A model generated the notes under the pieces. The model saw nothing but the letters and a program-made list of their open reading frames with translations. It made no database searches and was not told the origin of the DNA. From Spirochaetes bacterium GWB1_60_80 (GTDB lineage: Bacteria; Spirochaetota; Spirochaetia; Treponematales; UBA12059): a DNA stretch of 64,000 nt. The stretch covers positions 1 to 64,000 of the forward strand of contig MIAR01000029.1 in assembly GCA_001829185.1 (NCBI GenBank), given 5' to 3'. Below, piece after piece: positions 1 through 64,000 of this stretch (position 1 is its first letter; the number at the start of each line of letters is the position of its first letter). Both the position numbers and the translations under genes were made by a program.

Positions 1-10
1 CCAGGAAACT

Positions 11-90
11 CTAGTCCAAGCTTATCCTTGGACTAGAATTTGACTTATGAGGCAACCACCTCGTAGGACTAGATTTTATTATGAGGCAAC
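11..90. repeat. Hairpin plus two imperfect direct repeats upstream of trxA
   Basis: A perfect 10-bp stem (11-20 with 27-36, 6-nt loop) is followed by two imperfect direct repeats, 30-57 and 66-90. Both share GGACTAGA, a T-rich spacer and TATGAGGCAAC. No T-run follows the stem, so it is not a clear terminator. No gene is visible in 1-248. Whether this is the tail of an upstream feature or an operator is unknown. Confidence 0.5.
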
Positions 91-248: not shown

Positions 249-572
249 ATGAGCAACGCATTAGCAGTAACCAGCGCCAGTTTCGAAGCCGAAGTGGAAA
301 AATCGACGATTCCGGTGCTAGTCGATTTCTGGGCCGAGTGGTGCATGCCCTGCCGGGTCATCGGGCCCCACCTTGACGAACTGGCCAAGACCTATGCCGG
401 CAAAATCAAGGTTGTCAAGGTAAATGTCGACAACGAGCCCAACCTGGCTGGCCGCTTCGACATCATTTCCATCCCCACCCTGATTGTCTTCAAAAACGGC
501 CAACTCGCCCGTCAGAAGGTGGGCGGACTTCCCAAACACGAAATAGAAAATCTTTTTAAAGACCTCATCTAA
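249..572 (+). CDS. trxA: Thioredoxin with CMPC active site
   Basis: A 107-residue cytoplasmic thioredoxin, the usual length for the family. It reduces protein disulfides with electrons from thioredoxin reductase. The active-site motif reads WCMPC at about residues 31-35, where most thioredoxins have WCGPC. The Met replaces the Gly between the two redox cysteines and may shift the redox potential (inference). The cis-proline segment SIPT is present near residue 75. The start is ATG at 249 with AAGGAG 7 nt upstream and a good promoter at 142-170. It is convergent with the chemoreceptor gene downstream and appears monocistronic. Confidence 0.93.
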   Translation: MSNALAVTSASFEAEVEKSTIPVLVDFWAEWCMPCRVIGPHLDELAKTYAGKIKVVKVNVDNEPNLAGRFDIISIPTLIVFKNGQLARQKVGGLPKHEIENLFKDLI

Positions 573-596
573 ACCAGACAAAGCCGCCGTCTGAGT

Positions 597-642
597 AGCT
601 ACTAGCCGGTCAGGCTGTGGCTCTGGCGGCCGGCTAGTAGCT
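597..642. terminator. Inverted repeat between convergent genes
   Basis: A 13-bp perfect stem (597-609 with 630-642) around a 20-nt loop lies between trxA and the convergent chemoreceptor gene. There is no adjacent T-run on either strand, so a bidirectional terminator is an inference from position and stem strength. Confidence 0.4.
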
Positions 643-689
643 GCAGTGTCCCACCGCCGCGGCTAGCAGCCGCCAGCCGGGCGGCTGCC

Positions 690-2804
690 TTATGGGCAGG
701 CCCCCTCCTCCAGCTTGAAATTCTCCATGATGCAGGCCAGTTTAGCCGCTTCATCGGCCACGCTGTCCATATGGTCGTTGAAGGAATGCACCCGGTTGCT
801 CAGCTCATTCAGCTTGGCGCCTTGCTCGCCGATACTCCCGGCTACGACCTCGGTTTCCTGTTGCAGCGACATGATGGACTGGCGGATGCCGGTGGCCTCT
901 TCGTGTTGCTGATTTATCACCAATTTGAGTTCGGCATTGGCGTCGCGGATCAACTGCAAGGCCCTCAGAATCTCGTCGCCACCTTTGGCTTCCTCGGCCG
1001 TGGCGGCTGAAATCTCGCGGGACAGGCCGCCGTTTTCCTCGACGTCGACGATCATGCGGGCCAGATCGCCCTGCGCGGCGTTGGATGACTTGAGGCCGGC
1101 GGCGATGCTAAGGTTTATTTCGCCGATTAGCCGGCTGATCTCGGCCGATTCGGTATTGGCGGATTCCGCCAGCTTGCGGATCTCATCCGCGACCACGGCG
1201 AAGCCCTTACCGGTTTCGCCAGCGTGGGCCGCCTCAATGGCGGCATTCATGGCCAGCATATTGGTACGCTCGGCGATCTCGCCGATCACCTTCGTGAATT
1301 CGGCGATAGCTTCACTGCGCCGGCTAATATCCTGCATCACGCCAGCCAGCTCGTTTACGGCGTTGCCACCCTTCCGGGCTGAGTCATTCAGGCCAACTAC
1401 CAGATCCTGGCCCTTTTTGCCCAGGATAGCTACGTTATCCATGGTCCGGGAAATTTGGACCATGGCGGCGGCCGTTTGCTCGACCGAGGCCGACTGCGAC
1501 AACAGCTTTCCCTGCAAATTGCTGTATTGATCGAAAAACAGGTTGACACTGCGGCTGGTAACATCGAAATCAGTGGCCTCGTGGCGCACGGTGCTGATGA
1601 TGCCGTCCAAGGCCTGCACGGCCGTATCAAGGCCCTGGGCGACGCGGACCGAGGCGTCCCGGGTTTCGGCCGAGACGGCTTTCAGGTTATCGGACACCAC
1701 CATGGTCTGCCGAATCAGGGTGGCAAGATAATCGGTGAAGCTGTTGAAATGAAAGGCCAACTCGCCGATTTCGTCATGGCTGCGCACGTCCAGCTTTCTT
1801 TGCAGGTCGCCCCCGCCGCTGGCCACCATGGCCATGCCGGTAGCCACGTCGCGGATATAGCGCACCGGTACGGCCATCGCGAAGAATACCAATACCAAGG
1901 CCAGCAATCCAATGCCGATGGCAAAACCGATATTCAACCACCGTTTACTGGCCAGATCGCCGATGATATCGCTCAACTGGCCGAAAGAAACCAGTCGCCA
2001 GCCCAGGTCGGGGATGGCGATGGCCCCCACATACAAGCCCTGGTCGGCTAAAAACTCGACACTCAGGCTCGCTTCCATGAAGCGGGCTTGGTCCAGCTGG
2101 ATGGCAGTATCCTCAAAAAAGTCACCGGCCATCACTTTGGCCGCGTCGGTGTTGGTCACGTAGAGATTGTCGCTATTGATCAGGAAGGTTCGGGCGCTGG
2201 GCGTCGGCTGCAGCGCAGCGACCAGGTCGGTAACCGTGGTCATAAAGATATCGGCTCCCAAAACGCCAACCAAACGGCCGTCGCGCCGTATCGGGGTGGC
2301 CAAGGTGAAGACTAGCTGACCGGTATCGGCATCAACGTACGGCTCGTCGTAAATCAAGGCGCCCGTGGCGGCGGCGCGCGTGAACCAAGGTCGGCCGGTC
2401 CAGTCGTAATCGTCGCCCGGCACCCAACCGGAGCTATCCAGAAAAAAGCCGCCAGATTCACCGGGCTTGGCTACCGAGGCATAATAAATGCTATAGATTT
2501 CCGGATCGCGCTGGCCACGGGTAGTCACGGCAGCCAAAAAGACGTCCTTGGCGGTTTCATAATCGACATAGGCCAGACTGTCGCCGTAGGCTATCAAGGC
2601 ATCCGATTTGGCTGCCAACCAGACCCGAAAATCCATAACCCCGGCCTGGAGTCGAGCCTCGAGTTGGGCTTGTCCGCGTTGCAGCACGGCTTGCGACAGG
2701 AAGCGGGTGGAAAAAAGCGCAAAGGCCAGAATAATGACAAAAACAGTCAGCGTCACCAGCAGCATCAGCTTGAGCCTTATGGAAAAGCGCCTGTGAAAGT
2801 CCAT
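690..2804 (-). CDS. Methyl-accepting chemotaxis protein with Cache sensor
   Basis: A 704-residue transmembrane chemoreceptor. Residues about 12-36 form the first membrane segment. A periplasmic dCache-type sensor follows to about 290, then a second membrane helix near 290-315, a HAMP domain, and a long coiled-coil signalling domain. The hairpin tip is recognisable (NMLAMNAAIEAAHAGETGKG), where CheA and CheW dock. The start is ATG at 2804 with AGGGGG just upstream. The C-terminus lacks a CheR-tethering pentapeptide. The gene stands alone, away from the che cluster at the other end of the window. The ligand cannot be read from sequence. Confidence 0.9.
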   Translation of the reverse strand: MDFHRRFSIRLKLMLLVTLTVFVIILAFALFSTRFLSQAVLQRGQAQLEARLQAGVMDFRVWLAAKSDALIAYGDSLAYVDYETAKDVFLAAVTTRGQRDPEIYSIYYASVAKPGESGGFFLDSSGWVPGDDYDWTGRPWFTRAAATGALIYDEPYVDADTGQLVFTLATPIRRDGRLVGVLGADIFMTTVTDLVAALQPTPSARTFLINSDNLYVTNTDAAKVMAGDFFEDTAIQLDQARFMEASLSVEFLADQGLYVGAIAIPDLGWRLVSFGQLSDIIGDLASKRWLNIGFAIGIGLLALVLVFFAMAVPVRYIRDVATGMAMVASGGGDLQRKLDVRSHDEIGELAFHFNSFTDYLATLIRQTMVVSDNLKAVSAETRDASVRVAQGLDTAVQALDGIISTVRHEATDFDVTSRSVNLFFDQYSNLQGKLLSQSASVEQTAAAMVQISRTMDNVAILGKKGQDLVVGLNDSARKGGNAVNELAGVMQDISRRSEAIAEFTKVIGEIAERTNMLAMNAAIEAAHAGETGKGFAVVADEIRKLAESANTESAEISRLIGEINLSIAAGLKSSNAAQGDLARMIVDVEENGGLSREISAATAEEAKGGDEILRALQLIRDANAELKLVINQQHEEATGIRQSIMSLQQETEVVAGSIGEQGAKLNELSNRVHSFNDHMDSVADEAAKLACIMENFKLEEGACP

Positions 2805-4840: not shown

Positions 4841-6268
4841 ATGCCAGGCGAACCGGATTACTGTCGCGATTTGGATACCTTTTTCAAGAACGGCCAGATC
4901 CAGCAAGCCCTGTCGGCCTTGGGCCTGTTTGCGGTGGACTATGTCAACCGGCGAGCCTTGGCCAGCGTCATCTGGCAATCACTGGGCTATGGCGCCGAGG
5001 AGATGCTGCAACTCAAGATCCGGCAGCTAATCCATCCAGATGACAGGCTCCGCATCGTCGGACAGATCGACGCCATTCATGCTGGCCAGGCCGAGCGCTT
5101 CGACGAGACCTTCCGCATCCAAAGCGCCGATAGCCGCTGGGTCTGGATTCATTCCAGATTTTCGGTGCTGTACAAGGCGGAGGATGGTACCCCGCTCTTG
5201 CTGATCGGCCATGACCAAGACGTAACCAATACCAAACTGGCCGAAATCGAGAAACTGGAACGCTTGAACGAGATCGAGACCATCCGCCAAGTCAGCAATG
5301 ACTTAAGCATCAGCCTGGACCTCAACGAAACGGTTACCCTCATCCTGCATCACACCCGGCGGGTAATCGCCTACGATAAGGCCTCAGTCCAATTGCTGCA
5401 AGGCAACTGGCTGCAAGTCATCGGTTGCGTCGGCTTCAAGGATACGGCCGCCACGCTCAAACTACGCTTCAAGTACCCGACGCCGCGCAGTCCCAGCACC
5501 GTGGCCCTGCAATCGCGTAAACCGGTCATCTGCAATAACCTGGCCTTGGATTTCCCCGATTTCCTGCAGGCCGAAGGCGAAGATCCTATCCTGTCCTGGC
5601 TGGGCATTCCGCTGATCGCCAACAATGAGGTCGTCGGCCTGCTGGCCCTGGATTGCACCCGACCTGATTTCTATAGTCACCGCCACTTGCAGATGGCTGA
5701 GATGTTCGCCAGCCACGTGGCCATCGCCATCGAAAAGGCCTGCTTGTACCAGGACATGCAGACCATGGCCATCACCGACAGCCTGACCGGCGTCCGGAAC
5801 CGCCACAGCCTGCGCATCCACGGCAACTTCAGCTTCGAGAAGGCCAGGCGCAACGCCAAGGAACTGACCGTCTTGATGCTTGACCTCGACTTCTTCAAGC
5901 AGGTCAATGACGACTATGGACACGATACCGGCGACGTCGTCTTGGCCGAAACGGCCCGGCTGGTCTCCTCCTGCCTGCGGCCTAACGACCTCTTTATCCG
6001 CTATGGCGGCGAAGAATTCCTGGTGGTGCTGTACGATACCGGCCGGCGTATCGGCACCGATATCGCCGAGCGTATCCGCATGGCTATCTTCAATTGCAAA
6101 TTCCGCTCCATGAACCGCCCGCTCAGCATCAGCATTGGCGTCCATGGTGGCATTCCTGGCAGTGGCGACAGTTTTTCGGCCTTCATCAGTTCAGCCGACA
6201 AGGCCCTCTACGTGGCCAAGCAGTCCGGCCGCAACCGGGTGATCAACAGCGCGGACTGCCCAAGCTGA
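4841..6268 (+). CDS. PAS-GAF-GGDEF diguanylate cyclase
   Basis: A 475-residue soluble signalling protein. A PAS fold spans about residues 15-130, a GAF domain about 150-300 and a GGDEF domain about 310-470. The catalytic loop is RYGGEEF at about 387-393, which is an active signature. The RPND sequence just upstream matches the RxxD inhibitory site for product feedback. It makes c-di-GMP from two GTP. Possible c-di-GMP receptors in the window are the PilZ protein at 9583-9963 and the MshEN-like motifs of CheA. The start at 4841 is chosen because the promoter leads straight into it. The gene lies between two MITE copies. Confidence 0.9.
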   Translation: MPGEPDYCRDLDTFFKNGQIQQALSALGLFAVDYVNRRALASVIWQSLGYGAEEMLQLKIRQLIHPDDRLRIVGQIDAIHAGQAERFDETFRIQSADSRWVWIHSRFSVLYKAEDGTPLLLIGHDQDVTNTKLAEIEKLERLNEIETIRQVSNDLSISLDLNETVTLILHHTRRVIAYDKASVQLLQGNWLQVIGCVGFKDTAATLKLRFKYPTPRSPSTVALQSRKPVICNNLALDFPDFLQAEGEDPILSWLGIPLIANNEVVGLLALDCTRPDFYSHRHLQMAEMFASHVAIAIEKACLYQDMQTMAITDSLTGVRNRHSLRIHGNFSFEKARRNAKELTVLMLDLDFFKQVNDDYGHDTGDVVLAETARLVSSCLRPNDLFIRYGGEEFLVVLYDTGRRIGTDIAERIRMAIFNCKFRSMNRPLSISIGVHGGIPGSGDSFSAFISSADKALYVAKQSGRNRVINSADCPS

Positions 6269-9620: not shown

Positions 9621-9963
9621 TGCCATCTCCTTGGGTATAGGTAGCGAGAATCTTCTGCCAGTCCGCGGCGACCCGATCCGAATCGAAGCCGTCGATCATG
9701 CAGCCGAAGAGGCTGGAATTGTCTTCGCGCCGGGACCAGCAGACGGTGACGCGTAAAGCCGGCAGCAGAACGCCGATCTCCGCGAAATTTATGGTAACCA
9801 ACTCGGTGCCGGGAACGGCGCCGTCGTATGCCCCGGCGCTGCGCACCCGGAACCCGTTGCGCGAGGCGTCCGCCAGATAGCCGAGAAGCCCGCTGCCGGT
9901 AAACAACACCCGGGCGAAGGAGGCCAGCCGCGTACTGCCGCGCTGGTCGTTGCCGATACTCAT
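9583..9963 (-). CDS. PilZ-domain protein
   Basis: A 126-residue protein that is one PilZ-like domain. The c-di-GMP motifs are an RxxxR-type pair near residues 8-12 (RGSTR) and DASRNG at about 32-37, matching DxSxxG. The rest is the expected beta barrel. Such proteins change conformation on binding c-di-GMP and act on a partner. The start is ATG at 9963 with GGAGGT 6 nt upstream, overlapping the ATPase gene by 4 nt (ATGA). Its 3' end overlaps glyS by 38 nt. The partner is unknown, and the upstream GHKL protein is the obvious candidate. Confidence 0.75.
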   Translation of the reverse strand: MSIGNDQRGSTRLASFARVLFTGSGLLGYLADASRNGFRVRSAGAYDGAVPGTELVTINFAEIGVLLPALRVTVCWSRREDNSSLFGCMIDGFDSDRVAADWQKILATYTQGDGNDTCIECSSGES

Positions 9964-51488: not shown

Positions 51489-52195
51489 TGTACCATATTG
51501 CGCAGCTAACCAAAAGCTACGGCCCACGGCTGGTCTTGGACGGTCTGAACCTGGCCATCGCCCCGCAAGCCATCAACGTCATACTAGGACCCTCCGGCTG
51601 CGGCAAAACGACCCTGCTCAACATCCTGGCCGGCCTGGACAATGATTACCAGGGAACGGTCGGCGCACTGAGCGCGCTGAGCGCCAGCTACGTCTTTCAG
51701 GAAGACCGCCTGCTGCCCTGGCGTAGCGCCCTCGACAACGTCGCCTTCGCCTTGCTGGCCTTCATGGAAGCGCCGGCCGCGCGAGCCAAGGCCACCGGAG
51801 CGCTGGAAGGCCTGGGCCTGGCCGCTTTCCAGCACCACTATCCGGCCACCCTATCCGGCGGCATGCGGCGGCGGGTCGCCCTGGCCAGAGCCTTCGCCTG
51901 TCCTGGCCAGCTGATGCTGCTCGACGAACCGTTCGGCGCCTTGGACCTAAAGACCCGGATCGCCGTCATGGACAGCTTCTTGGAACTCCATCAAGGCGAC
52001 TGCCGCACTACCGTACTGGTGACGCACGAGGTCCGCGAGGCGATTTATCTGGCTGATTCGGTGCTAACCTTATCGGGCGCGCCGGCCCAGGCACGCGACC
52101 GCTTCCCGGTTCAGCTGGATCGCGCCGGCCGCAGTTTTGCCAGTCCGCAGTCCGCCGCCCTGGAAGCGGCCCTCTACGCCTCGATCCTGGCTTGA
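51488..52195 (+). CDS. ABC transporter ATPase (SsuB/TauB type)
   Basis: A 235-residue ATPase. Walker A is GPSGCGKTT near residue 35, the ABC signature is LSGGMRRRVALARA near 122 and Walker B is LMLLDEPFGALD. It powers the importer with the two preceding genes. Its last 22 nt overlap the convergent kinase gene on the minus strand. Confidence 0.93.
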   Translation: MYHIAQLTKSYGPRLVLDGLNLAIAPQAINVILGPSGCGKTTLLNILAGLDNDYQGTVGALSALSASYVFQEDRLLPWRSALDNVAFALLAFMEAPAARAKATGALEGLGLAAFQHHYPATLSGGMRRRVALARAFACPGQLMLLDEPFGALDLKTRIAVMDSFLELHQGDCRTTVLVTHEVREAIYLADSVLTLSGAPAQARDRFPVQLDRAGRSFASPQSAALEAALYASILA

Positions 52196-53652
52196 GCCGA
52201 CACTAACGGCAAGTAGACCGTGAAGGTGCTGCCCTGGCCGGGGGTCGACGCCACGTCGATATAGCCGTGGGCGCTCTGCACGATGCCGATGACGGTGGAA
52301 AGGCCAAGGCCGGTTCCCTTGCCAACCGGTTTGGTGGTAAAGAAGGGATCAAAAATCTTAGGCAGGTTGACCGGTTGGATACCACTACCTTCGTCGGCCA
52401 CACTAATGAAAGCCCACTTCCCAGCCGGAATGTCTTGCACGATGGCGCGCTTGGGAGTCGGCATGATTTCCAGGCCGCTGGAGATACGCAGGGTTCCGCC
52501 CAAGGACATGGCGTCGCGGGCGTTCAGGCACAGGTTCAGCAGGGCTTGCTCGAGACGCAGCTTGTCGGCCAGTACCGTCATGGGCTCGTCCTGGTGGCGT
52601 GACTCGATCTTAATGCCCTTGCCGACCAGGCGGGACAGCAGCAGTTCCAGATCCTGGCAGACTGCGGCCGGGGCCAAGGCCTCGGCCTTGACCGGGTCGT
52701 TGCGGGCAAACATCAGCAATTGCTTGGTCAAACCAGTGGCGCGCTCGGTGGAGCGGATAATGCCCTCCAGTTCGGCCATGGCCTCGACCTGTCCCTCAAT
52801 CTCGGATTCCAGCATGCGCGCGAAGCCGAGAATGGCCGTCAGGATGTTGTTAAACTCGTGCGCCACCGAGCTGGCCAGTTTACCCAGCGCATCCATTTTC
52901 TGCGATTGCAGCAGCTTCTGGGCCAGTTCCTGCTTCTCGGTGATATCGAGCGCCTGGCACAAAAAGGCGCCGGCCTCGTATTCCAGGCTGAACGGCGCCA
53001 ACGACAACAATACCGTCCGCGTCTTGTTCTGATCGACCAGCAGCGACAACTCGACATTGCGCAGGGAGCCCCTGGTAGCCAAGGCGCGTTCCAGCAGCTG
53101 CCGGTCGGCTGGCAAGGCCAGTAAGGTTGGCAGGTCACCGTAGTACGCTTCGGCCGCGATCAGCTCCAAGAAGGCGGCATTGGTCTCCAGCACGGCGCCG
53201 GCAGCGTTGACGATGCATTGCGGCATCAGGCCGGCCGAGAACAGGCTGCGATAGCGTTGCTCGCTGCGTCGCAAGCGGCTTTCCATCGAGGCCCGGTACA
53301 AGGCCAGTTCAATGGCGGTGCGCAGCTCGCGATCATTGAAGGGTTTGAGCACATAAGCATACGGCTGGCTCTGCTTGGCTCGCTCGATGGTGGCATTGTC
53401 TGAATAGGCGGTTAACAGGATTACCGGAACGCCATACTGGCTATGCAGCAAGGCGGCGGCTTCCAGCCCGTCCATGCTACCCGCCAGGTGGATATCGAGC
53501 AGCACCAGGTCCGGCGGCTGCTTGGCCACGGCCAGCAACAAATCCTCGGCGCGGCTATACAAGCCGCTGACGGTATACTGGTTTCTGGTGAGAAAACGCT
53601 CAATATCAAGCGCGACAATCGTCTCGTCTTCGCAGACGGCTATGCGCTGCAA
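52174..53652 (-). CDS. Receiver-PAS-histidine kinase
   Basis: A 492-residue soluble kinase. The N-terminal receiver has phospho-acceptor Asp53 (VLLDIHL) and Lys103 (VLKPF). A PAS fold covers about 130-240. HisKA phosphorylates His265 in SSVAHEFNN. The ATPase has [15 protein letters not shown] and GKGTGLGLS. Since it has a receiver at the front and no membrane segment, it is likely controlled by an upstream phosphorelay. The start is a TTG at 53652, 21 nt after the receiver gene. Its 3' end overlaps the ABC ATPase gene on the other strand by 22 nt. Confidence 0.85.
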
Positions 53653-53673
53653 ACCAGTTTTCCCGGCATTGCT

Positions 53674-54087
53674 CTAGCTCTTGGTTCCCGGCAGGAGGCC
53701 GAATTTGGTCATCTCCGCTTTGATTTTCAGACGGTCGACCGGCTTGACGATGTAAGCGGTGGCGCCGCCCTTGAAATAAGCGCTGACCACATTGTGGGGA
53801 TCCTCCAGCACGGTGGTCATGACCACGCGCACTTCGCGCACCGGATCGACACCGGCCTCTTGTTCCAGCTTGCGGATCTGGCGCAAGGCTTCCTGCCCGT
53901 CCATGCGCGGCATCATGATGTCCATGAAGATTATATCGTACGGCTTCTGTTCCGATACGGCCAGGCTGTAGGCCTGGACCGCTTCCTCGCCGTCGACCAC
54001 CGCATCGACCGCTCCGTATTCCTCGAGCGTTTTCTGCATCATGCGACGGCTGCTAAAATCATCCTCCACAATCAAAATGCGTGTCAT
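53674..54087 (-). CDS. Stand-alone receiver (CheY-like)
   Basis: A 137-residue single receiver domain beginning MTRILIVEDD. The phospho-acceptor Asp is in IIFMDIMMP, the conserved Thr region in VVMTTV and the Lys in YIVKPV. It has no output domain. The start overlaps the hybrid-kinase stop by 4 nt (ATGA). It is placed between two kinases and may pass phosphate between them (inference). Confidence 0.85.
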   Translation of the reverse strand: MTRILIVEDDFSSRRMMQKTLEEYGAVDAVVDGEEAVQAYSLAVSEQKPYDIIFMDIMMPRMDGQEALRQIRKLEQEAGVDPVREVRVVMTTVLEDPHNVVSAYFKGGATAYIVKPVDRLKIKAEMTKFGLLPGTKS

Positions 54088-56027
54088 GAAGACCTCCCCG
54101 GCGCGTAGGTAATAAAATCTTTCTGCAAGAGTATCTGCAGCTCATGGATCCAGGGACCGGCGCCCTTGCGGGCATCCATCAGCAAGGTGAGCACGAAACG
54201 GGCCGCCGCGGCATACTGCCGAAGGCAAAAATCATCATAATGACGCTTCGCGGTCCGCTCGATCAAGCCAAGATCCTGGCTTTCGAAGGCCAGGCGCAGG
54301 TCGTGCCAGAGCAAAGTCAGCGTCTCAGACATCTGGGGCGTCATATCTAAGGCCGCCTCATCAAGCAAGCGGCCGTATACCGACGGCAGGGCACGGCCAT
54401 AATCCCCCCCCGCGTCGGGTTCGAAAAGTTCTGCCAGGCCATCAGGGGGGGAAACCGCCGCCGGCGTCGGCGCAGCCTGGCTTGAGCCGACCGGGTTGAC
54501 CGAACCAGCGTAGCGTAGCAAGTCCTCGTAGACCAAGCTGGGCTGCAGCGGGTACGGTCGCCTAAAAAAACTCTCCGACCGGCGGATATAGCACAGAGGG
54601 TCAGTCGGCGCCCCCAGGATCACCAGGCGGTCGGCCACGCAACCGACGGCCGCGTATAAACGGTTACGCAAGTCCTGGTTGGCCTTGGCCCAGGCGGCCA
54701 ACTCGATATAGATCAGCGCCCAATTGGCCGCGCCGGCCGGCTCCGGATCAAAAGTCCAGCAGGTCACGCCAAGAGGCGTCACCATCGCGGTCAAATCCTC
54801 GGCAATTGTCTCGGGTAGTCCGTACATGGCGACGCGAAGTCCGGCCAGCCGGTGATCCGGCAGGGAGCAGGCCGACTCCACCTGGGCCGGCAGGGGCAAG
54901 AAAAGGTCGACGCAGGTGCCGTGACGCTCGTCGAAACTGACCTTTAACTCGATATTCAGCAATTCAGTCAACTTTTTGACCAGACTGAGGCCAAGACCCA
55001 GCCCCTCATACAAGCGGGTATACGAGGCATCCCCCTGACTGAAGGGGGTAAACAGCTGGGCCAGCTTGTGCGGCGCGATGCCGGTCCCCGAATCGGAAAT
55101 CTGAATATGCAGATAACTCTGCCCCAGACGCTCGACACGGGTACCGCCGAGTCGGACATAGCCTCTGGTGGTAAACTTGACGGCATTCTCAACCAAATTT
55201 TTGAGGATGGTTGCAATCTTGGCGGCATCGCCGACCAGGCTGGCCGGCAGAGCCGGGTCGATATAGAGGCCGATGGCGAGCCCCTTCATGTAGGCATCGC
55301 CGGCATAGGGCTCCCAGGAGCGCATAAACAAGTCCTCGATGATGAACTCCGTGACCATCGGTACCAAGGCCTTGTTTTCCAGCTTAGTGTAATCGAGGAT
55401 GGTATTGATCGAGGCTTCCAGGCGGCGGGCACCGCGGCTGGCGAACAGCAGGTATTCGGTCAACTCGTCGTTTTCGGTTAGCTGCAGGGCCAGGTCGATG
55501 AAGCCGAGAATCGAATTCAGCGGTGTCTTCAGCTCGTGGCTGATGTTGGACAAAAAGCTGCTTTTTGCCCGGTTGCTTTCTTCCGCCAGGTTCTTGGCCT
55601 TTTCCAGCGATTTTTGGTAGCTGTACTTGGAGAGGGCCAACTCGATGGCGATCGCCATCTCCCGCTCATGGAACGGTTTGACAATGTAGCCGTAGGGACT
55701 GGTGGTGCGCACCCGGGCCAGGGTGGCGTCGTCGGTGAAAGCCGTCACGAAGATGATCGGCGGGCCATCGGCGGCATTGATGACGTTGGCGGCTTCGATG
55801 CCGTCGGCGTCGCCTTTGAGCTTGATGTCCATCAAGATCAGATCTGGCCGCAGATCGCGCGCCTTGTCGATGGCACCCTGCGCCGTGGCGGCAACATCGC
55901 ACACCTTGTATCCCAGGGACGCCAAACGGTGGCGCATGTCCAGGGCGACGATGGTCTCGTCCTCGACGATCAAGATACGGGCCTTATCCCTCCACCCCTC
56001 GGCGGTGGTTTCGCTCGACTCGATCAC
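54084..56027 (-). CDS. Receiver-histidine kinase with C-terminal extension
   Basis: A 647-residue soluble kinase. The receiver has Asp67 (LILMDIKL). HisKA has His164 (SNISHELKTPLNS). The ATPase has NLVENAVKF, ISDSGTGIAP and GLGLGLSLVKKL. After the ATPase comes a region of about 250 residues that includes a degenerate receiver-like part and a helical C-terminus that could be an HPt. It contains a G8 run on the coding strand (54414-54421) and a C7 run. The start is GTG at 56027 with a weak GGGGA site. It follows cheW by 41 nt. Confidence 0.8.
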   Translation of the reverse strand: MIESSETTAEGWRDKARILIVEDETIVALDMRHRLASLGYKVCDVAATAQGAIDKARDLRPDLILMDIKLKGDADGIEAANVINAADGPPIIFVTAFTDDATLARVRTTSPYGYIVKPFHEREMAIAIELALSKYSYQKSLEKAKNLAEESNRAKSSFLSNISHELKTPLNSILGFIDLALQLTENDELTEYLLFASRGARRLEASINTILDYTKLENKALVPMVTEFIIEDLFMRSWEPYAGDAYMKGLAIGLYIDPALPASLVGDAAKIATILKNLVENAVKFTTRGYVRLGGTRVERLGQSYLHIQISDSGTGIAPHKLAQLFTPFSQGDASYTRLYEGLGLGLSLVKKLTELLNIELKVSFDERHGTCVDLFLPLPAQVESACSLPDHRLAGLRVAMYGLPETIAEDLTAMVTPLGVTCWTFDPEPAGAANWALIYIELAAWAKANQDLRNRLYAAVGCVADRLVILGAPTDPLCYIRRSESFFRRPYPLQPSLVYEDLLRYAGSVNPVGSSQAAPTPAAVSPPDGLAELFEPDAGGDYGRALPSVYGRLLDEAALDMTPQMSETLTLLWHDLRLAFESQDLGLIERTAKRHYDDFCLRQYAAAARFVLTLLMDARKGAGPWIHELQILLQKDFITYAPGRSS

Positions 56028-56068: not shown

Positions 56069-56545
56069 TCAGGCTGCCGCCTCGCGATACACGGCGTCCA
56101 TGTCCACAATAATGACAAAACCATCACTGACATGGGCGATGGCTTGGACGAATTTCTCGTTGCCGGCCTGGCCGGCGCTCGGCCGCGTGCCCAGATCGGG
56201 GATGGCCTCGATGACGCTGGCGTCCAGATCAATCACCTCGCGCACTCCGTCCGCCAACATGGCAAAGCTGGCCAACTCGCCGTCGCATTCCAGCTGGAGC
56301 ACGATAAGGGCGGCGACGGCCAGGTTCTGTTGCCCAGAACCTGAAAAGCTGACGGCCAGGTCGATGACCGGAACCACCGACCCCCGGTGATTGATGACAC
56401 CGCAGACGATGGGTTTGGCGTTCGGTACCCGGGTGATGGCCTGCATCTCCAATACCACCTCCACCTTGCCGACGGGGATGGCATAGACCGACTCGCCCAG
56501 CACGAAGGACAGATAACGGCTGGTAGCCCCCTGGTTGTCGCTCAT
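56069..56545 (-). CDS. cheW: CheW adaptor, second copy
   Basis: A 158-residue CheW-like SH3-pair domain. Conserved blocks are RYLSFVLGESVYAIPVGKVEVVL, GVINHRGSVVPVIDL and a C-terminal FVIIVDMDAVYRE. It links chemoreceptors to CheA. It starts 1 nt after cheY, so the two are coupled. Confidence 0.92.
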   Translation of the reverse strand: MSDNQGATSRYLSFVLGESVYAIPVGKVEVVLEMQAITRVPNAKPIVCGVINHRGSVVPVIDLAVSFSGSGQQNLAVAALIVLQLECDGELASFAMLADGVREVIDLDASVIEAIPDLGTRPSAGQAGNEKFVQAIAHVSDGFVIIVDMDAVYREAAA

Positions 56546-56546
56546 C

Positions 56547-56915
56547 TCATTCCACCACTTTTTTGACGACAGCCATCAGCTTGTCGGCGCTGAACGGCTT
56601 GACGATCCAACCCGTGGCGCCGGCCTCCTTGCCTTCGTTCATCTTGCTGCCCTGGGACTCGGTAGTCAGCACCAGTATGGGCGTGAACTTGAATTTCGGA
56701 TTCCCGCGCGCCTGGCGGATAAAGCCGATGCCATCCAGATTCGGCATGTTCACGTCGGTGATGACGCAATCGAAGCGTTCGGCGGCGGCCAGTTTGGCCA
56801 GTCCGTCCAGGCCATCGACCGCCTCAACCGTTTGAAAGCCTTCTTGGTTCAGTATAAAGGTAATGCTCTGGCGGATGGCCGCCGAATCATCGACTACCAG
56901 GATAAGCTTGGCCAT
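56547..56915 (-). CDS. cheY: Chemotaxis response regulator CheY
   Basis: A 122-residue receiver with Asp at VDDSA (acidic pocket), the phospho-acceptor in CVITDVNMPNLDG, Thr in LVLTTES and Lys in IVKPFS. Phospho-CheY controls the flagellar switch. ATG at 56915 with GAGGAGG upstream. Confidence 0.92.
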   Translation of the reverse strand: MAKLILVVDDSAAIRQSITFILNQEGFQTVEAVDGLDGLAKLAAAERFDCVITDVNMPNLDGIGFIRQARGNPKFKFTPILVLTTESQGSKMNEGKEAGATGWIVKPFSADKLMAVVKKVVE

Positions 56916-56980: not shown

Positions 56981-58048
56981 TCAACGGGTAACTTTCAGTA
57001 CTTCGGCGGCGATCCGGGACAGGGGGCAAATCTGATCCACCCCGCCCAATTTGATCGCCTCGTTGGGCATCCCGAAAACCACGCAAGATTCCTCGTCCTG
57101 GGCGATGGTCCAAGCCCCGCTGTCGTGCATCTCTTTCATGCCGCGCGCGCCGTCGTCGCCCATGCCGGTCATGATCACCCCGAGGGCATTCTTGCCGGCA
57201 TAACGCGCCGCCGACCGGAACAGCACGTCCACGCTTGGCCGGTGCCGGCACACCAGGGGGCCTTCCTTGACCTCGACATAATAGCGGGCCCCCGAGCGCT
57301 TGAGCAAGGTATGCTTGTTACCCGGCGCGATCAAAGCTTGCCCCCGGAGAACCGTATCATTGTCGGCAGCCTCCTTAACGCTGACGCGGCAGAGCCCGTC
57401 CAGGCGCCGCGCGAAGGCCGCCGTAAAATGTTCCGGCATGTGCTGCACGATGACGATGCCAGGGCAATTTTCCGGCAGAGCCTCCAAAAATTCGCGCAAG
57501 GCCTCAGTACCGCCGGTGGAGGCGCCTACCATCACTATTTTCTCTGTCGTCTCTATTATGCTGTTGGAGACCGGTTTTGGCAACATGGCATCGGCGTTTA
57601 ATTTCGGCGTTACTTCGCGCAGCGCGGCCAGCGGCCGGTGCTTGTGCCGGCTGAGGTGGGCGGCCTTCACCGCGTCGCAAATGGAGACCCGTGATTCCTC
57701 GAGGAATTGCTTGGTGCCGAGTTTTGGCTTCTGGATGATGTCGACCGCGCCATATTCCATGGCCTTGATGGCGTTGTCGGAGCCATCATCGGCCTTGCTG
57801 GAGCAAATAACCACCGGGATGTCGCTAGTTTCGCGAATCTTGCGCAAGAAGGTCAAACCGTCCATTCGCGGCATCTCCAGGTCGGAGAGGATGACGTCCG
57901 GCCGCTCGATCTCCAGCTTCTTGAGGGCAAACAATGGGTCGGCGGCCACGGCGATGACGCGCAACTGAGAATCGGAATCGAGAATATCCTTCAAGGTCTG
58001 CCGCACCAGGGCAGAATCGTCAACTACCAGTACTTTTATCTTGTTCAC
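56981..58048 (-). CDS. cheB: Chemotaxis methylesterase CheB
   Basis: A 355-residue protein-glutamate methylesterase/deamidase. The receiver has Asp56 (VILSDLEMP). The catalytic triad is Ser177 (GASTGGTEA), His203 (VQHMPEHFT) and Asp299 (GMGDDGARG). It removes methyl groups from receptors, opposing CheR. Start is GTG at 58048. A run of ten G (58061-58052) lies 3 nt upstream and is the only purine-rich site. Length changes in this tract would alter translation. The stop is in MITE copy G's flank. Confidence 0.95.
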
Positions 58049-58108: not shown

Positions 58109-58963
58109 TTACATTCGCTCATATACGGTTGGCGCCAACGAGTGCAACGGCAGATCCATCCCGGTCAAGGTCTCGGAATGTCCCAGCAAGAAGATGCCAC
58201 CTGGCTGCAGGTAGCGGCACATCCGTCCCAGGATCTTTTCCTGGGTAGGCCGGTCAAAATAAATGATGACATTGCGGCAGAACACTACCTGGAACGGCCC
58301 GTCGAAGGGATAGGATTGATCCATGAAATTAAGGCGCAGAAACTCGACCTTCTGACGCAATTCCGGTTTGATGCGCACCTCGTCCCGTCCGGCCTTACGG
58401 GAACGCAGTAAATATTTTTTTTTCATGGCCGGCGACAGCATGCTCACCCGCTCCGAGGCGTATACCGCGTTAACCGCCTTCTGCAAAGCCTGGCTGGAAA
58501 TGTCGGAAGCCGTAATGTGAAAATCAAAGCCCGGCTGCTTGGCCTGGAATTCGGCCAAGACCATGGCCAGGGTATAGGGCTCCTCGCCGGTCGAACAACC
58601 GGCTGACCAGAAGCTGAACAGGCCCCGCCCGGGTCGCCTTTGCAGCAATTGCGGCAGCAAGCGCCCGGTCAGCAACTCGAAATGGTCCGGTTCGCGAAAG
58701 AAATCGGTCTTGTTGGTAGTAATGGCATCGATCATGTGAATCAACTCATCACCTTCGTTCTTATTGGAAAAAACGAAATCGAGGTACTCCTCGTAGTTGG
58801 CGTAACCATGCAGGCGCAGGCGTTTATTTAGGCGGCTCTCCAGCATTATTTTCTTAGTTTCCGGCATGCGGATGCCTAGCTGCTCCTCAATGAAGGCCGC
58901 CAGGCGGTTGAAAGCCTTAACGGACAGTCCCTTAGGCTGGTCGTCCGGGAAAATGCCCGTCAC
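58109..58963 (-). CDS. cheR: Chemotaxis methyltransferase CheR
   Basis: A 284-residue SAM-dependent protein-glutamate methyltransferase. The helical N-terminal domain precedes the Rossmann core with SAGCSTGEEPYTLAMVLAE and, later, FCRNVIIYFD. It methylates receptor glutamates. The start overlaps the cheA stop by 4 nt (ATGA). Confidence 0.95.
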   Translation of the reverse strand: MTGIFPDDQPKGLSVKAFNRLAAFIEEQLGIRMPETKKIMLESRLNKRLRLHGYANYEEYLDFVFSNKNEGDELIHMIDAITTNKTDFFREPDHFELLTGRLLPQLLQRRPGRGLFSFWSAGCSTGEEPYTLAMVLAEFQAKQPGFDFHITASDISSQALQKAVNAVYASERVSMLSPAMKKKYLLRSRKAGRDEVRIKPELRQKVEFLRLNFMDQSYPFDGPFQVVFCRNVIIYFDRPTQEKILGRMCRYLQPGGIFLLGHSETLTGMDLPLHSLAPTVYERM

Positions 58964-61167
58964 AAACGCCCTCGCAGCGCTCCGGTCCGCACCTTGAGGG
59001 CGATGCGGCCGTGGTCGATGATCAAGGCGACGGTGCCGTTGCCCAAGATAGTGGCTCCGGACAGGCCTTCGACGCCGCGCAGCATGCGGCCGAGCGGCTT
59101 GATGACGGTCTGGTGGTCGCCGATGACCGTGTCCACCACCAGGCCGATGCGCTCGTTCTGGGAATTCACGACCACGACTTGCCGCACCAGCGGCGCCTCG
59201 CCGGGTACGCTGAAAAATTCGCGCAAGTCGACATAAGGCAACAGGTCGCCCCGATACTGCATCAAGCGCCCCTCGTTCGAGCCGGCAGCCTGACTGTCAA
59301 GTTCGACACAGGCTTCGACCGGCGCCAAGGGCAACACGTAATATTCCTGGCTGATGCGCACCAGCAGGCCTTCGATGATAGCCAGGGTCAGCGGTATCTT
59401 CAGAAAAATGGTTGACCCTTGTCCACGGCGCGATACGATGGAAACCGCGCCGCCCAGGGAGTCGATCTCCCGCTTGACCACGTCCATGCCGACGCCGCGC
59501 CCGGAAACGCTGCTGACATTCTTGGCCGTGCTGAAGCCCGGGCGGAAGACCAGCATGAAGGCTTCCTCCTCGGTCAGATTCTCGCCCGGGCCAATCAACC
59601 CCCGCTCCAGGGCCTTGGCTTGAATGGCGTCAACGTCCAGGCCATTGCCGTCATCGCTGACTGAAATGATGACGTGGGCGCCGGATTGCTCGGCGCGCAG
59701 GGTTAGGCTACCGCGGACAGCCTTGCCGGCCGCTTGGCGCACCTCTGGTCGCTCCAAGCCGTGATCCAAGGCATTGCGGATAATATGCACCAGCGGATCG
59801 TTCAGCCGTTCGATGACGGTCTTGTCCAGTTCGGTCTCGGCGCCTTCGGTCAGTAGATCGACATCCTTGCCCAACTCGGCCGAAAGATCGCGCACCACCC
59901 GCTTGAACTTATTAAAGGTCGAGCCGATGGGCAGCATCCGGATGCTCATGGCGTTGTCGCGCAGCTGCGATACCAGGCGTTCCAGCTGTTCGGAAATGGC
60001 CGAGAGTCCAGCGTCGGCCACTTCGGAGGAAGTCTGCGCCAGGCGGGCCTGCAGGGTCACCATTTCGCCGACCAGGTCGACCAGCAGATCCAGCTTTTCA
60101 CTGGCTACCCGAATGGAGGCCGAATTCTCGCTGGTTTTTTCCTGGGACTTGCGGACATGGGCCTGCTCGGCCAAGGCTGCGTCAAGTTCCGCCTGACTGA
60201 CCAGCCGGTTCTGGATAAGGACATCGCCCAGCCGACGTTGGGACTTCAAAGCATCGCCCAGGTCAGTGAGTTGAACCAGGCCGCGTTCCACCAGGATTTC
60301 GCCGAGCTTCTTGGTCTCGCCAGGCGTGCCTTCGTCCGGATTGGCGATCTTTTCGATTTTCAGCTCAACCGAACCTTCGACAAAAATGAAGACATCCTTG
60401 ATGGCATTGAGGCCCTGGGCGGTAACCAGAATCAGGTCCCAGGCCACATAGCAGAATTCTGGATTGATGTCCTCCAGATCCGGAATCTCGCGCAAGCGCG
60501 GAAAGGCCTGCAATTCGCCCAGGCTGGCTAACTCGGCCAGCAATTTGAAAACACGAGTACCGGTAAAAAAAATGCCCGCCGCCGGCTTGAGCATGAGCCG
60601 ATAGCTTTCCTGAGTAGCGTTGCCATGACTGACGGGCCTGGGCGGCTGGTTCGGCGCCGAGCCGCCGATTAAGGCCGCCCCCACTGGAACGGGCGACCCG
60701 CCTGGAGCGCTCGACCCAGCGGCGGATACGGCCGATTCATTGGCCCCGGGCGCCGGGGCGGAACCAGTCTGGACTGGCGCGGCGGCGCGGTGCTTGTCAA
60801 CCAGTTGTTTAAAAGCGCCGATTATTTCCAAGCCCTCGGCGCTGAACGGCGCGCTGTCGTCATCCTCGGCCAGCATTTCCTTGACGATGTCGCGCGCCCG
60901 CAGGAAGAGACCAACCACGCTGGAATCGGCCTGGAGGCGGCCGACGCGACACTCGTCCAGCAAGGATTCAAAATCATGCACGAAGCGGCTAATGCGCTCA
61001 AACCCGAACATGCCGGCCGAGCCCTTGATGGTATGTACAGCCCGGAAGGTGGCATTGAGGACATCCACGTCGGCCGGGTTCGTTTCTAGTTCCAGCAGTA
61101 AGCCTTCCAGCTGCACCAGCAGCTCGTCGGCTTCCTCGCGAAAGGCGTTTTTGAATTTGTCCATCAT
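58960..61167 (-). CDS. cheA: Chemotaxis kinase CheA with tandem MshEN-like motifs
   Basis: A 735-residue histidine kinase. P1/HPt has His45 (AVHTIKGSAGMFG). A Pro/Ala/Ser linker (about 128-182) and a P2-like CheY-docking domain (about 185-275) follow. Then two 24-residue motifs occur at residues 287-310 and 312-335 (KLGEILVERGLV... and RLGDVLIQNRLV...). P3 dimerisation, P4 ATPase (NALDHGLE, DDGNGLD, GRGVGMDVV) and P5 CheW-like domains complete it. The tandem motifs resemble the c-di-GMP-binding MshEN domain. ATG at 61167. Confidence 0.95.
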   Translation of the reverse strand: MMDKFKNAFREEADELLVQLEGLLLELETNPADVDVLNATFRAVHTIKGSAGMFGFERISRFVHDFESLLDECRVGRLQADSSVVGLFLRARDIVKEMLAEDDDSAPFSAEGLEIIGAFKQLVDKHRAAAPVQTGSAPAPGANESAVSAAGSSAPGGSPVPVGAALIGGSAPNQPPRPVSHGNATQESYRLMLKPAAGIFFTGTRVFKLLAELASLGELQAFPRLREIPDLEDINPEFCYVAWDLILVTAQGLNAIKDVFIFVEGSVELKIEKIANPDEGTPGETKKLGEILVERGLVQLTDLGDALKSQRRLGDVLIQNRLVSQAELDAALAEQAHVRKSQEKTSENSASIRVASEKLDLLVDLVGEMVTLQARLAQTSSEVADAGLSAISEQLERLVSQLRDNAMSIRMLPIGSTFNKFKRVVRDLSAELGKDVDLLTEGAETELDKTVIERLNDPLVHIIRNALDHGLERPEVRQAAGKAVRGSLTLRAEQSGAHVIISVSDDGNGLDVDAIQAKALERGLIGPGENLTEEEAFMLVFRPGFSTAKNVSSVSGRGVGMDVVKREIDSLGGAVSIVSRRGQGSTIFLKIPLTLAIIEGLLVRISQEYYVLPLAPVEACVELDSQAAGSNEGRLMQYRGDLLPYVDLREFFSVPGEAPLVRQVVVVNSQNERIGLVVDTVIGDHQTVIKPLGRMLRGVEGLSGATILGNGTVALIIDHGRIALKVRTGALRGRL

Positions 61168-61181
61168 GATGCTACTCCTGC

Positions 61182-61514
61182 TCAGGCGGCCGGAAAATCC
61201 GGCAGCAGCTTCTGCAATTGCTCGCCGCTAACCGGTATCTCAGTCAGGAAACCGGCCACCGGCAGACGTTTGCAGGCCGCAGCCTGCACCGTGCCAGAGA
61301 AGGCTAAGCGCTTGCCTTGCTTAGCAGCGCTCTTGGCGGCGGCATAGAAAAGCTGCAAGGCGGGTAAATCCAGGTCGGTGACGGCCGACAGGTCGAGCGT
61401 CAGGTTGCCAGGACCAGTCAAGGCGTCGCGTAAGCGTTTGGCCAAGCCGCTAGCCGTCTCGATGGTTAGAGCGCCTTCCAGTGCCACTATCATGGATGTT
61501 GTCGCTATTTTCAA
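61182..61514 (-). CDS. STAS-domain protein at the head of the che operon
   Basis: A 110-residue anti-anti-sigma-type STAS domain (LDLSAVTDLDLPALQLFYAAAKSA). The usual phospho-acceptor Ser position is occupied by Asp or Leu, so it is unlikely to be switched by Ser phosphorylation. The start is TTG at 61514, supported by a perfect GGAGGTG about 7 nt upstream. It precedes cheA by 14 nt. The GHKL ATPase at 10 kb is a formal candidate partner (inference). Confidence 0.82.
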   Translation of the reverse strand: MKIATTSMIVALEGALTIETASGLAKRLRDALTGPGNLTLDLSAVTDLDLPALQLFYAAAKSAAKQGKRLAFSGTVQAAACKRLPVAGFLTEIPVSGEQLQKLLPDFPAA

Positions 61515-61775: not shown

Positions 61776-62294
61776 TTAGGCCGACGGCGCGACGGAGGCT
61801 ACTGCGGCCGCCGCAGTCACCGTGGCCGCCGCGTCGAGCGCGCCGGCTTCGTCGCGGCTGAAAATACGGTCGACATCCAGGATGATTATGAAGCGGTCAT
61901 CCTTTTTACCGATGCACTTGATGAAATCGGCGTCGATCTTGCTACCAAAGCGGGGAGCCGGCTCAAGCTGATCCGGCTCCAGGTCAATCACTTCGTGTAC
62001 CTCGTCGGTCAAAGCGCCGATTACCAGTTGGTTGGCGCTGCCCTGGGCTATCTCGGTGACGATGATGGCCGTGTCGCGGCTGACTTCGGATTCGCTCAAG
62101 CCAAAGCGGATGCGCAGGTCCACCACCGGGATGCCGGAACCGCGCACATTGATGAGCCCCTTCAGCCAATCGGCGGTCTTGGGCAGTTTAACCGGCTTGA
62201 GGTATTCCAGCACTTCGCGCACCTTGCTGACGGGAATGGCGTAACTGTCGCCATCGATGCCGAAAGTCAGATATTGGTTGTCTTTTTGTTCCAT
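61776..62294 (-). CDS. cheW: CheW adaptor, first copy
   Basis: A 172-residue CheW. Conserved blocks are QYLTFGIDGDSYAIPVSKVREVLEY, GLINVRGSGIPVVDLR and FIIILDVDRIF. A low-complexity tail of about 20 Ala/Val/Thr residues ends the protein. It starts 2 nt after the MCP stop. The TAA stop is in the flank of MITE copy H. Confidence 0.93.
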   Translation of the reverse strand: MEQKDNQYLTFGIDGDSYAIPVSKVREVLEYLKPVKLPKTADWLKGLINVRGSGIPVVDLRIRFGLSESEVSRDTAIIVTEIAQGSANQLVIGALTDEVHEVIDLEPDQLEPAPRFGSKIDADFIKCIGKKDDRFIIILDVDRIFSRDEAGALDAAATVTAAAAVASVAPSA

Positions 62295-62296
62295 GG

Positions 62297-64000
62297 TTAG
62301 AACTCCTCAAAGTCGTCGTCGTTGGCCGGCTCCCGGCCTTTATCGGGACGGACCGTGATGGCCGTTCGGGACGAGGGTTTGGCCGAGTCGGCCGGCGGGG
62401 GGCTGGTTTTAGAAGCAGCCTGATCGGCGCTGTGAGCGATCTGGACATGGTGTCGGCTCGCTACTGGCGCGACGGTAGCCGCTGGCCGCGTCGACGGGGA
62501 CCGGGCTGCCGTCGGCGTGGCGTGGCTGCTAGCTTTACCGTTCTCAAGCTTGAAATAGGAGATGGCGTCGGCCAACTGCTCGGCCTGGCTGGACAGCTCC
62601 TCGGCCATGCTAGCCATTTCCTCGCTGGCGCTGGCATTCTGCTGGATAACGGTGTCCAGCTGGGTGACGGCCCGGGCAATCTGGTCGGCGCCGACGCTCT
62701 GCTCGCGACTGGCGGCGCTGATTTCCGATACCAGGTCGGCCGTCTTGCGGATATCCGGCACCACGGCGCCGATGCGGGTTCCGGCTTCCTCGGCCACGCT
62801 AACCGTGCTCTTGGACAGAGACATGATCTCGCCGGCCGCCGTTTGACTACGCTCGGCCAGTTTGCGCACTTCGCTGGCCACCACCGCGAAACCCTTGCCG
62901 GCCTCACCGGCCCGGGCGGCCTCGATGGCCGCGTTCAGGGCCAGCAAGTTGGTCTGGCGGGCGATTTCCTCAATTATGTTGATCTTGTCGGCGATCTGGT
63001 TCATGGCCACCACCGCCTTGTTGACGGCGGTAGCGCCTAACTCGGTGTCGCCGGCGGCCTTACGGGCCATACTCTCGGTAGCCTGGGCGTTGTCGGCGTT
63101 CTGCTTGATGGTGCTGGTCATTTCCTCGATGGACGAGGAGACTTCCTCGGCGCTGGTGGCCTGCTCGGTAGCGCCTTGGCTCATCTGTTGGGCGGTACTG
63201 GACATTTCCTGGCTGCCGGACGAAACGTTGGCACTGGAAGCCAGCACTGAGGCCACCAGGTCGCGCAAGGCCCGCATCATGCTTTGAATAGCCTTGGACA
63301 AGAGGCCGATCTCATCGACGCGCTTCAGGTAAAGCGGTGGCACCTCGTGCGTCAGGTCGCCATCCGCCACATAGGTGGTCAGCTTGACGGCCTCGCCCAG
63401 CGGCTTGGTGATGGATAGGGCAAGTAGGCTAGCCACAACCATGGCTACTACCAAAGCAAAGATGGCCACGATTATGCTGACCAAGACGGCCTGATTAGAG
63501 TACTCGTCGAATTGCGCGTCGGCGGCGTGTTGCTCTTCCTCCAACGATTGGGTGATGGCCGTCAAAGGAGTAATAAAAAGATCAATCAGGTTGTCGATTT
63601 CCCCATCCAGTTCCCGGATTTGAAGAGTAACTTCGGCAGACTGTTGCAAGGCCGGCATGAGCCGAGTCTCAACCAAGGCAACAATCTTCTCAAAGGCGTC
63701 GTCAACTTGTTCCATGAGGGCCACTTCGCGCTCGGTCTCTACCAGGGTATCCAAGCTAATGAGCTGCGCTAAAATTTCGGTCTTTTCAGCCTCCCAATCC
63801 CTTTGCGAAGTAGCAAGGTCACGATTGATGATGGCGTCGGCCACAATCTGATAGGCCTTAACCGGCGAGCTCATCATGTGGGCCAAAAAAACGGCATCCG
63901 TAGCGCGGGCGGCCCCTTCATCCTGCAGTGTTTTCAATCGAACCTGATACATAATGCCAATTACTACCAAGGCAATCATCAAGAGTACGACAAAGCCAAA
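62297..64000 (-). CDS. Methyl-accepting chemotaxis protein (5' end outside window)
   Basis: A chemoreceptor whose start lies beyond the right edge, since the frame remains open to 64000. The visible part begins inside the first membrane helix. A helical four-helix-bundle-type sensor follows, then a second membrane segment near position 63470-63400. HAMP and the signalling coiled coil with [20 protein letters not shown] complete the core. The C-terminal linker is long and Pro/Ser-rich and ends DDDFEEF, which resembles the CheR/CheB-tethering pentapeptide (xWxxF). It is coupled to cheW. Confidence 0.9.

Follow-up and report, generated by a model that had tools for sequence, protein, structure and literature searches.

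The CheA kinase encoded in the window, the whole 64,000-nucleotide stretch of Spirochaetes bacterium GWB1_60_80 DNA analyzed here, carries between its P2-like and P3 domains a compact region, residues 287–335, that is almost certainly homologous to MshEN_N, judging from its sequence and its predicted fold. We favor, with a probability of about 0.55, the explanation that this region acts as a compact receptor for c-di-GMP and thereby tunes the kinase output of CheA. The initial annotation had described two 24-residue MshEN-like motifs at residues 287–310 and 312–335, which translation of the minus strand reproduced. It had also noted that fewer residues than usual separate the motifs and that the second has Arg where Gly is usual; R311 alone lies between them, compared with a literature value of five residues, and the substitution is Arg321.

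CheA of the window and its gene cluster

Pfam identified the P1 (HPt), P3, P4, and P5 domains in the protein, in agreement with its assignment as CheA as far as these domains are concerned. The Pfam scan of the protein gave no P2 match. The AF2 model of residues 186–414 consisted of a P2-like domain followed by four short helices and then the P3 hairpin, and the P2-like domain matched P2 of Thermotoga maritima CheA (1u0s) with a Z of 7.4 and 2.9 Å over 74 residues, although many other ferredoxin-like folds also matched. Pfam, AF2, and the structure matches thus agree with the earlier placement of the motifs between the P2-like and P3 domains.

The genes of the cluster are arranged in the order MCP-CheW-STAS-CheA-CheR-CheB-CheY-CheW, as judged by Pfam (Table 1). 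A STAS match was found beside cheA in 69 of 80 homologous loci from several phyla. Directly downstream of the cluster and on the same strand, positions 52174–56027 encode a receiver protein and two hybrid sensor kinases.

Table 1. Positions in the window of cheA, the domains of its product, and the neighboring chemotaxis genes
Feature	Position	Strand	Residues	Description	Basis
cheA	58960..61167	-	735 aa	P1(HPt)-P2-like-compact MshEN-P3-P4-P5	Pfam domains, translation
P1 HPt domain	60898..61149	-	7–90		Pfam PF01627, E 7.4e-16
P1 phospho-acceptor			His45	Within AVHTIKG	Residue read from sequence
P2-like domain	60346..60612	-	186–274	Beta-alpha-beta-beta-alpha-beta fold	AF2, pLDDT about 90
Compact MshEN_N domain	60163..60309	-	287–335	49 aa	NF053729.1, AF2, Foldseek
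Motif I	60238..60309	-	K287–Q310		Translation, motif regex
Spacer	60235..60237	-	R311	One residue	Alignment
Motif II	60163..60234	-	R312–Q335	R321 where Gly is usual	Translation, regex, alignment
P3 dimerization domain	59941..60120	-	350–409		Pfam PF02895
P4 HATPase	59386..59799	-	457–594		Pfam PF02518
P5 CheW-like	59002..59373	-	599–722		Pfam PF01584
STAS-domain protein	61182..61514	-		Upstream of cheA	
CheW	61776..62294	-			
MCP	62297..64000	-		Extends past window end	
CheR	58109..58963	-			
CheB	56981..58048	-			
CheY-like receiver	56547..56915	-			
Second CheW	56069..56545	-			

Tandem motifs in CheA

Motif I (KLGEILVERGLVQLTDLGDALKSQ) and motif II (RLGDVLIQNRLVSQAELDAALAEQ) retain all 12 ligand-contact positions, K287, L288, G289, L303, L307, and Q310 in the former and R312, L313, G314, L328, L332, and Q335 in the latter, with Lys in place of Arg at K287. 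The turn glycine is present in motif I (G296) and replaced by R321 in motif II. When a relaxed form of the motif was searched in six frames of the window, these two sites were the only matches. NF053729.1, the NCBIfam model of the MshE-type c-di-GMP motif with 53 positions and a curated cut-off of 38 bits, aligned over its positions 1–53 to residues 287–335 with 40.6 bits (E 1.6e-10), and a phmmer search of the PDB returned PilF (1.1e-7) and MshE (5HTL; 1.3e-4). The motif is short and rich in leucine, and two leucine-rich helical stretches might resemble it by chance. This explanation can practically be dismissed: among 20,000 shuffles of the CheA protein, a single motif arose once and a tandem never, the NF053729.1 score lies above the cut-off, and the conservation of both motifs in 98 homologues (see below) already refutes it. 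Typical MshEN_N domains have 53 residues and a five-residue spacer, in contrast to the 49 residues and one-residue spacer found here, and because of this difference in length residues 287–335 are, by their sequence, a short-spacer variant of MshEN_N rather than a typical member.

Predicted fold of the compact domain

Modeling with AlphaFold had been suggested together with the initial annotation. AF2 predicted the isolated domain (residues 280–346) to be a four-helix bundle with a mean pLDDT of 89.7 and block means of 94–98 through the bundle, including the loop at 308–312. The predicted helices span residues 288–294, 300–307, 313–319, and 325–345 or beyond; the last, alpha4 of MshEN, extends over 325–349 and ends just before P3. 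The short spacer had at first suggested domain swapping through an unbroken alpha2-alpha3 helix, but AF2 predicted otherwise and this idea was discarded. Helix alpha2 (300–307) is short in the model, so that Q310 falls in a loop; in c-di-GMP-bound MshE, alpha2 is two turns longer than in the non-binding XpsE (Wang et al., PMC5013675).

The best PDB matches of the isolated-domain model were c-di-GMP-bound MshE and PilF GSPII-B, and both the match to the NCBIfam model and these structural matches argue for the MshEN-type domain proposed earlier. Superposition on MshE (5HTL) gave a Foldseek probability of 1.00 and 1.0 Å, and VIA gave a Z of 9.2 and 2.1 Å over 56 residues. A VIA Z of about 9 is modest by itself for a small helical bundle, but the MshEN relatives outscored unrelated entries, which reached about 5 at most, and the sequence evidence points the same way. 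The P2–P3 model matched PilF GSPII-B (8pfa) with 1.3 Å over 53 residues. Ferredoxin-like and HPPK matches dominated the Foldseek results for the P2-MshEN-P3 model, a problem that was solved by using the isolated domain.

Coverage of the domain by Pfam

A Pfam MshEN profile search, another check suggested at the outset, gave no match: PF05157 did not score above its gathering cut-off in the window CheA or in any of 92 homologous segments. NF053729.1 matched 91 of these 92 segments. In two Spirochaetota pilus-type ATPases, the PF05157 alignment begins past the motifs (residue 66 or 69), and in the one pilus-type ATPase scanned with NF053729, the match lies at residues 11–63. According to these alignments, PF05157 is a model of the C-terminal MshEN subdomain and not of the motif-bearing part, which is the only reason that it misses the window CheA. 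Since the model reports the other subdomain, it would have been wrong to take its silence as evidence against the idea. PF05157 was accordingly abandoned as a test of MshEN, as it also missed both canonical-spacer CheAs scanned. The C-terminal subdomain is dispensable for binding, as isolated MshEN_N (MshE 1–62) binds c-di-GMP at 0.35 µM (PMC5013675). Weak matches of Pfam DUF4388 (PF14332) below its cut-off were seen in 76 of the 92 MshEN segments (positions 60130–60330 in the window), which hints at a relation.

Conservation and phylogeny of the compact class

CheA homologues were gathered from the order of the host, its phylum, and a named genome collection, yielding 98 non-redundant proteins from at least six phyla with the domain between P2 and P3. 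Named sources include Spirochaetota, Nitrospirota, Deferribacterota, Planctomycetota (Kuenenia), a Myxococcota MAG, a SAR324 MAG, and, in Thermodesulfobacteriota, Geomonas, Geotalea, Desulfonema, and Desulfoluna. The domain has 49 residues in 93 of them and 48 in the other 5, which have one residue less within a motif. The spacer is a single residue throughout and is Lys or Arg in 90/98.

No homologue departs from Gly3 in either motif or from Gln24 in motif II, and R/K1 of motif I (96/98) and L21 of motif II (97/98) are nearly as constant, although the search patterns favored conserved motif I and the P2 end and the conservation of motif I may therefore be overstated. The mean entropy was 0.96 bits at the contact positions and 1.96 bits elsewhere in the domain. 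The residues flanking the spacer are often lost: Q24 of motif I is kept in 74/98 and R/K1 of motif II in 69/98, and the two are lost together more often than expected (Fisher p 7e-4, uncorrected for relatedness). The contact set is complete in 58/98, leaving about 40% incomplete, and Gly occupies the position of R321 in 48/98. Because the spacer-flanking Q24 and R/K1 vary and tend to vanish together, the class probably contains both c-di-GMP binders and non-binders.

In the window CheA, c-di-GMP binding is somewhat favored by analogy with known MshEN domains; the spacer that is four residues short, the shortened alpha2, and Arg321 in place of the turn Gly count against it, as do the incomplete contact sets in the class and the degenerate paralogues. 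The same shortened spacer and helix, together with the incomplete residue sets in the class and the degenerate paralogues of the host, would suit a domain that retained the MshEN fold, lost c-di-GMP binding in its compact form, and either has a structural role as a spacer in CheA or docks another protein there. The MshEN-like domain of Xanthomonas citri PilB, a docking site for PilZ without the c-di-GMP motifs, provides a precedent (PMC8389850). We consider this less likely, as the two Gly3 residues and Gln24 are invariant across phyla, the contact set is complete in the window CheA and most of its near orthologues, and X. citri PilB came below both c-di-GMP-bound MshE and PilF in the Foldseek ranking. 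The asymmetric conservation, in which R/K1 of motif I and Q24 of motif II are kept while the junction residues vary, could also point to a nucleotide ligand with another specificity or occupancy, such as a different cyclic dinucleotide or one bound mainly by one half-site. This is improbable for the window CheA, in which both half-sites are complete.

In a tree of the P3–P5 kinase core, from which the domain was excluded, 42 of 43 short-spacer sequences grouped together with support of 97/97, and the remaining one (L197) has a very long branch. Fourteen canonical-spacer CheAs of Spirochaetota (L180–L189, L192–L194, and L198) formed a separate clade (100/100). The survey of spirochaete CheAs proposed earlier thus showed that the domain recurs, in compact and in canonical-spacer form.

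Other MshEN and c-di-GMP genes

Three of the five CheA matches in the host genome carry the compact domain. In the paralogues at C18:60723-62801 (L034) and C25:11606-13291 (L033), it is degenerate, and the contact sets appear incomplete. CheAs without MshEN, common to most genomes of the order (the L027–L030 type; on C35 in this genome), are probably the flagellar CheA, in which case the MshEN-type CheA would serve additional chemosensory systems.

The host genome has 31 GGDEF and 7 PilZ matches. GGDEF was present in all 161 Spirochaetota genomes that matched the A1 profile, and the 22 genomes lacking GGDEF gave no match to it, a co-occurrence that is confounded by relatedness and by matches of A1 to some non-CheA MshEN. 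The initial annotation had cited a diguanylate cyclase and a PilZ protein nearby; the GGDEF gene (5768–6238) and the PilZ gene (9679–9942) of the window do not belong to the che cluster and are separated from cheA by about 50 kb, and at this distance their proximity was dropped as support for c-di-GMP control.

A stand-alone, single-domain MshEN protein of about 54–88 aa (L031:1498-1764, minus strand; C12:42861-43016) is the top c-di-GMP-motif match of the genome with 66 bits. Many Spirochaetota genomes contain similar open frames of 53–110 aa with little beyond the c-di-GMP motif.

Discussion

We propose that two 24-residue half-sites joined by a one-residue spacer form a compact MshEN_N bundle inserted in the P2–P3 linker of CheA, and that each domain would bind one c-di-GMP, with one guanine in each half-site. 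Because the last MshEN helix ends just before P3, a bound ligand would make the tether that joins P1/P2 to the dimeric P3–P4 core more rigid or alter its orientation. This may change the access of P1 to P4 and tune CheA autophosphorylation to the level of c-di-GMP, and the output through CheY and CheB would follow. Gating of the kinase, in whichever direction, is suggested by the position of the domain between the P1/P2 arm and the P3–P4 core, and we give it slightly less than even odds. Lys at position 1 of motif I would suit high affinity, since wild-type PilF GSPII-B binds at 6 nM and its K167R variant at 150 nM (PMC11731258). In PilF constructs, ligand binding orders the isolated N-terminal bundle (PMC12002112), a behavior that would suit a switch in CheA. 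That a CheA clade spanning at least six phyla senses c-di-GMP directly through the 49-residue domain and gates its kinase in this way is a tentative generalization, with the odds somewhat against it.

Elsewhere, c-di-GMP is linked to chemotaxis by PilZ proteins that act on the motor or on CheR. A PilZ chemoreceptor is another such link (PMC6454048). If the proposal is true, c-di-GMP would enter at the kinase, the center of the array, rather than at receptors, methylation, or the motor, and the MshEN pocket would tolerate a four-residue deletion, which widens the motif to be searched. The domain is common in Spirochaetota, Geobacteraceae, other Desulfobacterota, and Nitrospirota, so that a single binding assay would be informative for many systems. 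The pairing of MshEN with CheA was named by Wang et al. in 2016, in one clause that cites a supplementary table (PMC5013675). The literature searched, which included few subscription papers and no supplementary files, yielded that clause as the one relevant statement, no functional study of MshEN-CheA, and no description of the compact spacer class or its clade distribution.

Among known systems, MshEN_N of Vibrio cholerae MshE (5HTL) shares with the CheA domain the two 24-residue motifs, all contact positions, and the four-helix bundle, which is predicted in CheA, with 41% identity over 56 aligned residues. CheA differs in having one spacer residue instead of five, 49 aa instead of 53, and Arg321 in place of Gly47, in lacking the C-terminal MshEN subdomain, and in being a chemotaxis kinase. 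GSPII-B of Thermus thermophilus PilF (8PDK/8PFA), the top structural match of the P2–P3 model (1.3–1.4 Å over 53 residues), likewise has Lys at position 1 of motif I, whereas its spacer is longer, its C-terminal subdomain is present, and its host protein is a traffic ATPase. X. citri PilB (7LKO) has at its N-terminus a domain of the same fold family, but, unlike that of the window CheA, it is the motif-less, PilZ-docking form described above. The canonical-spacer MshEN-CheAs of Spirochaetota have the same domain order as the window CheA and score 53–59 bits with NF053729 (two scanned), but they have a spacer of about five residues and form a separate clade in the kinase-core tree.
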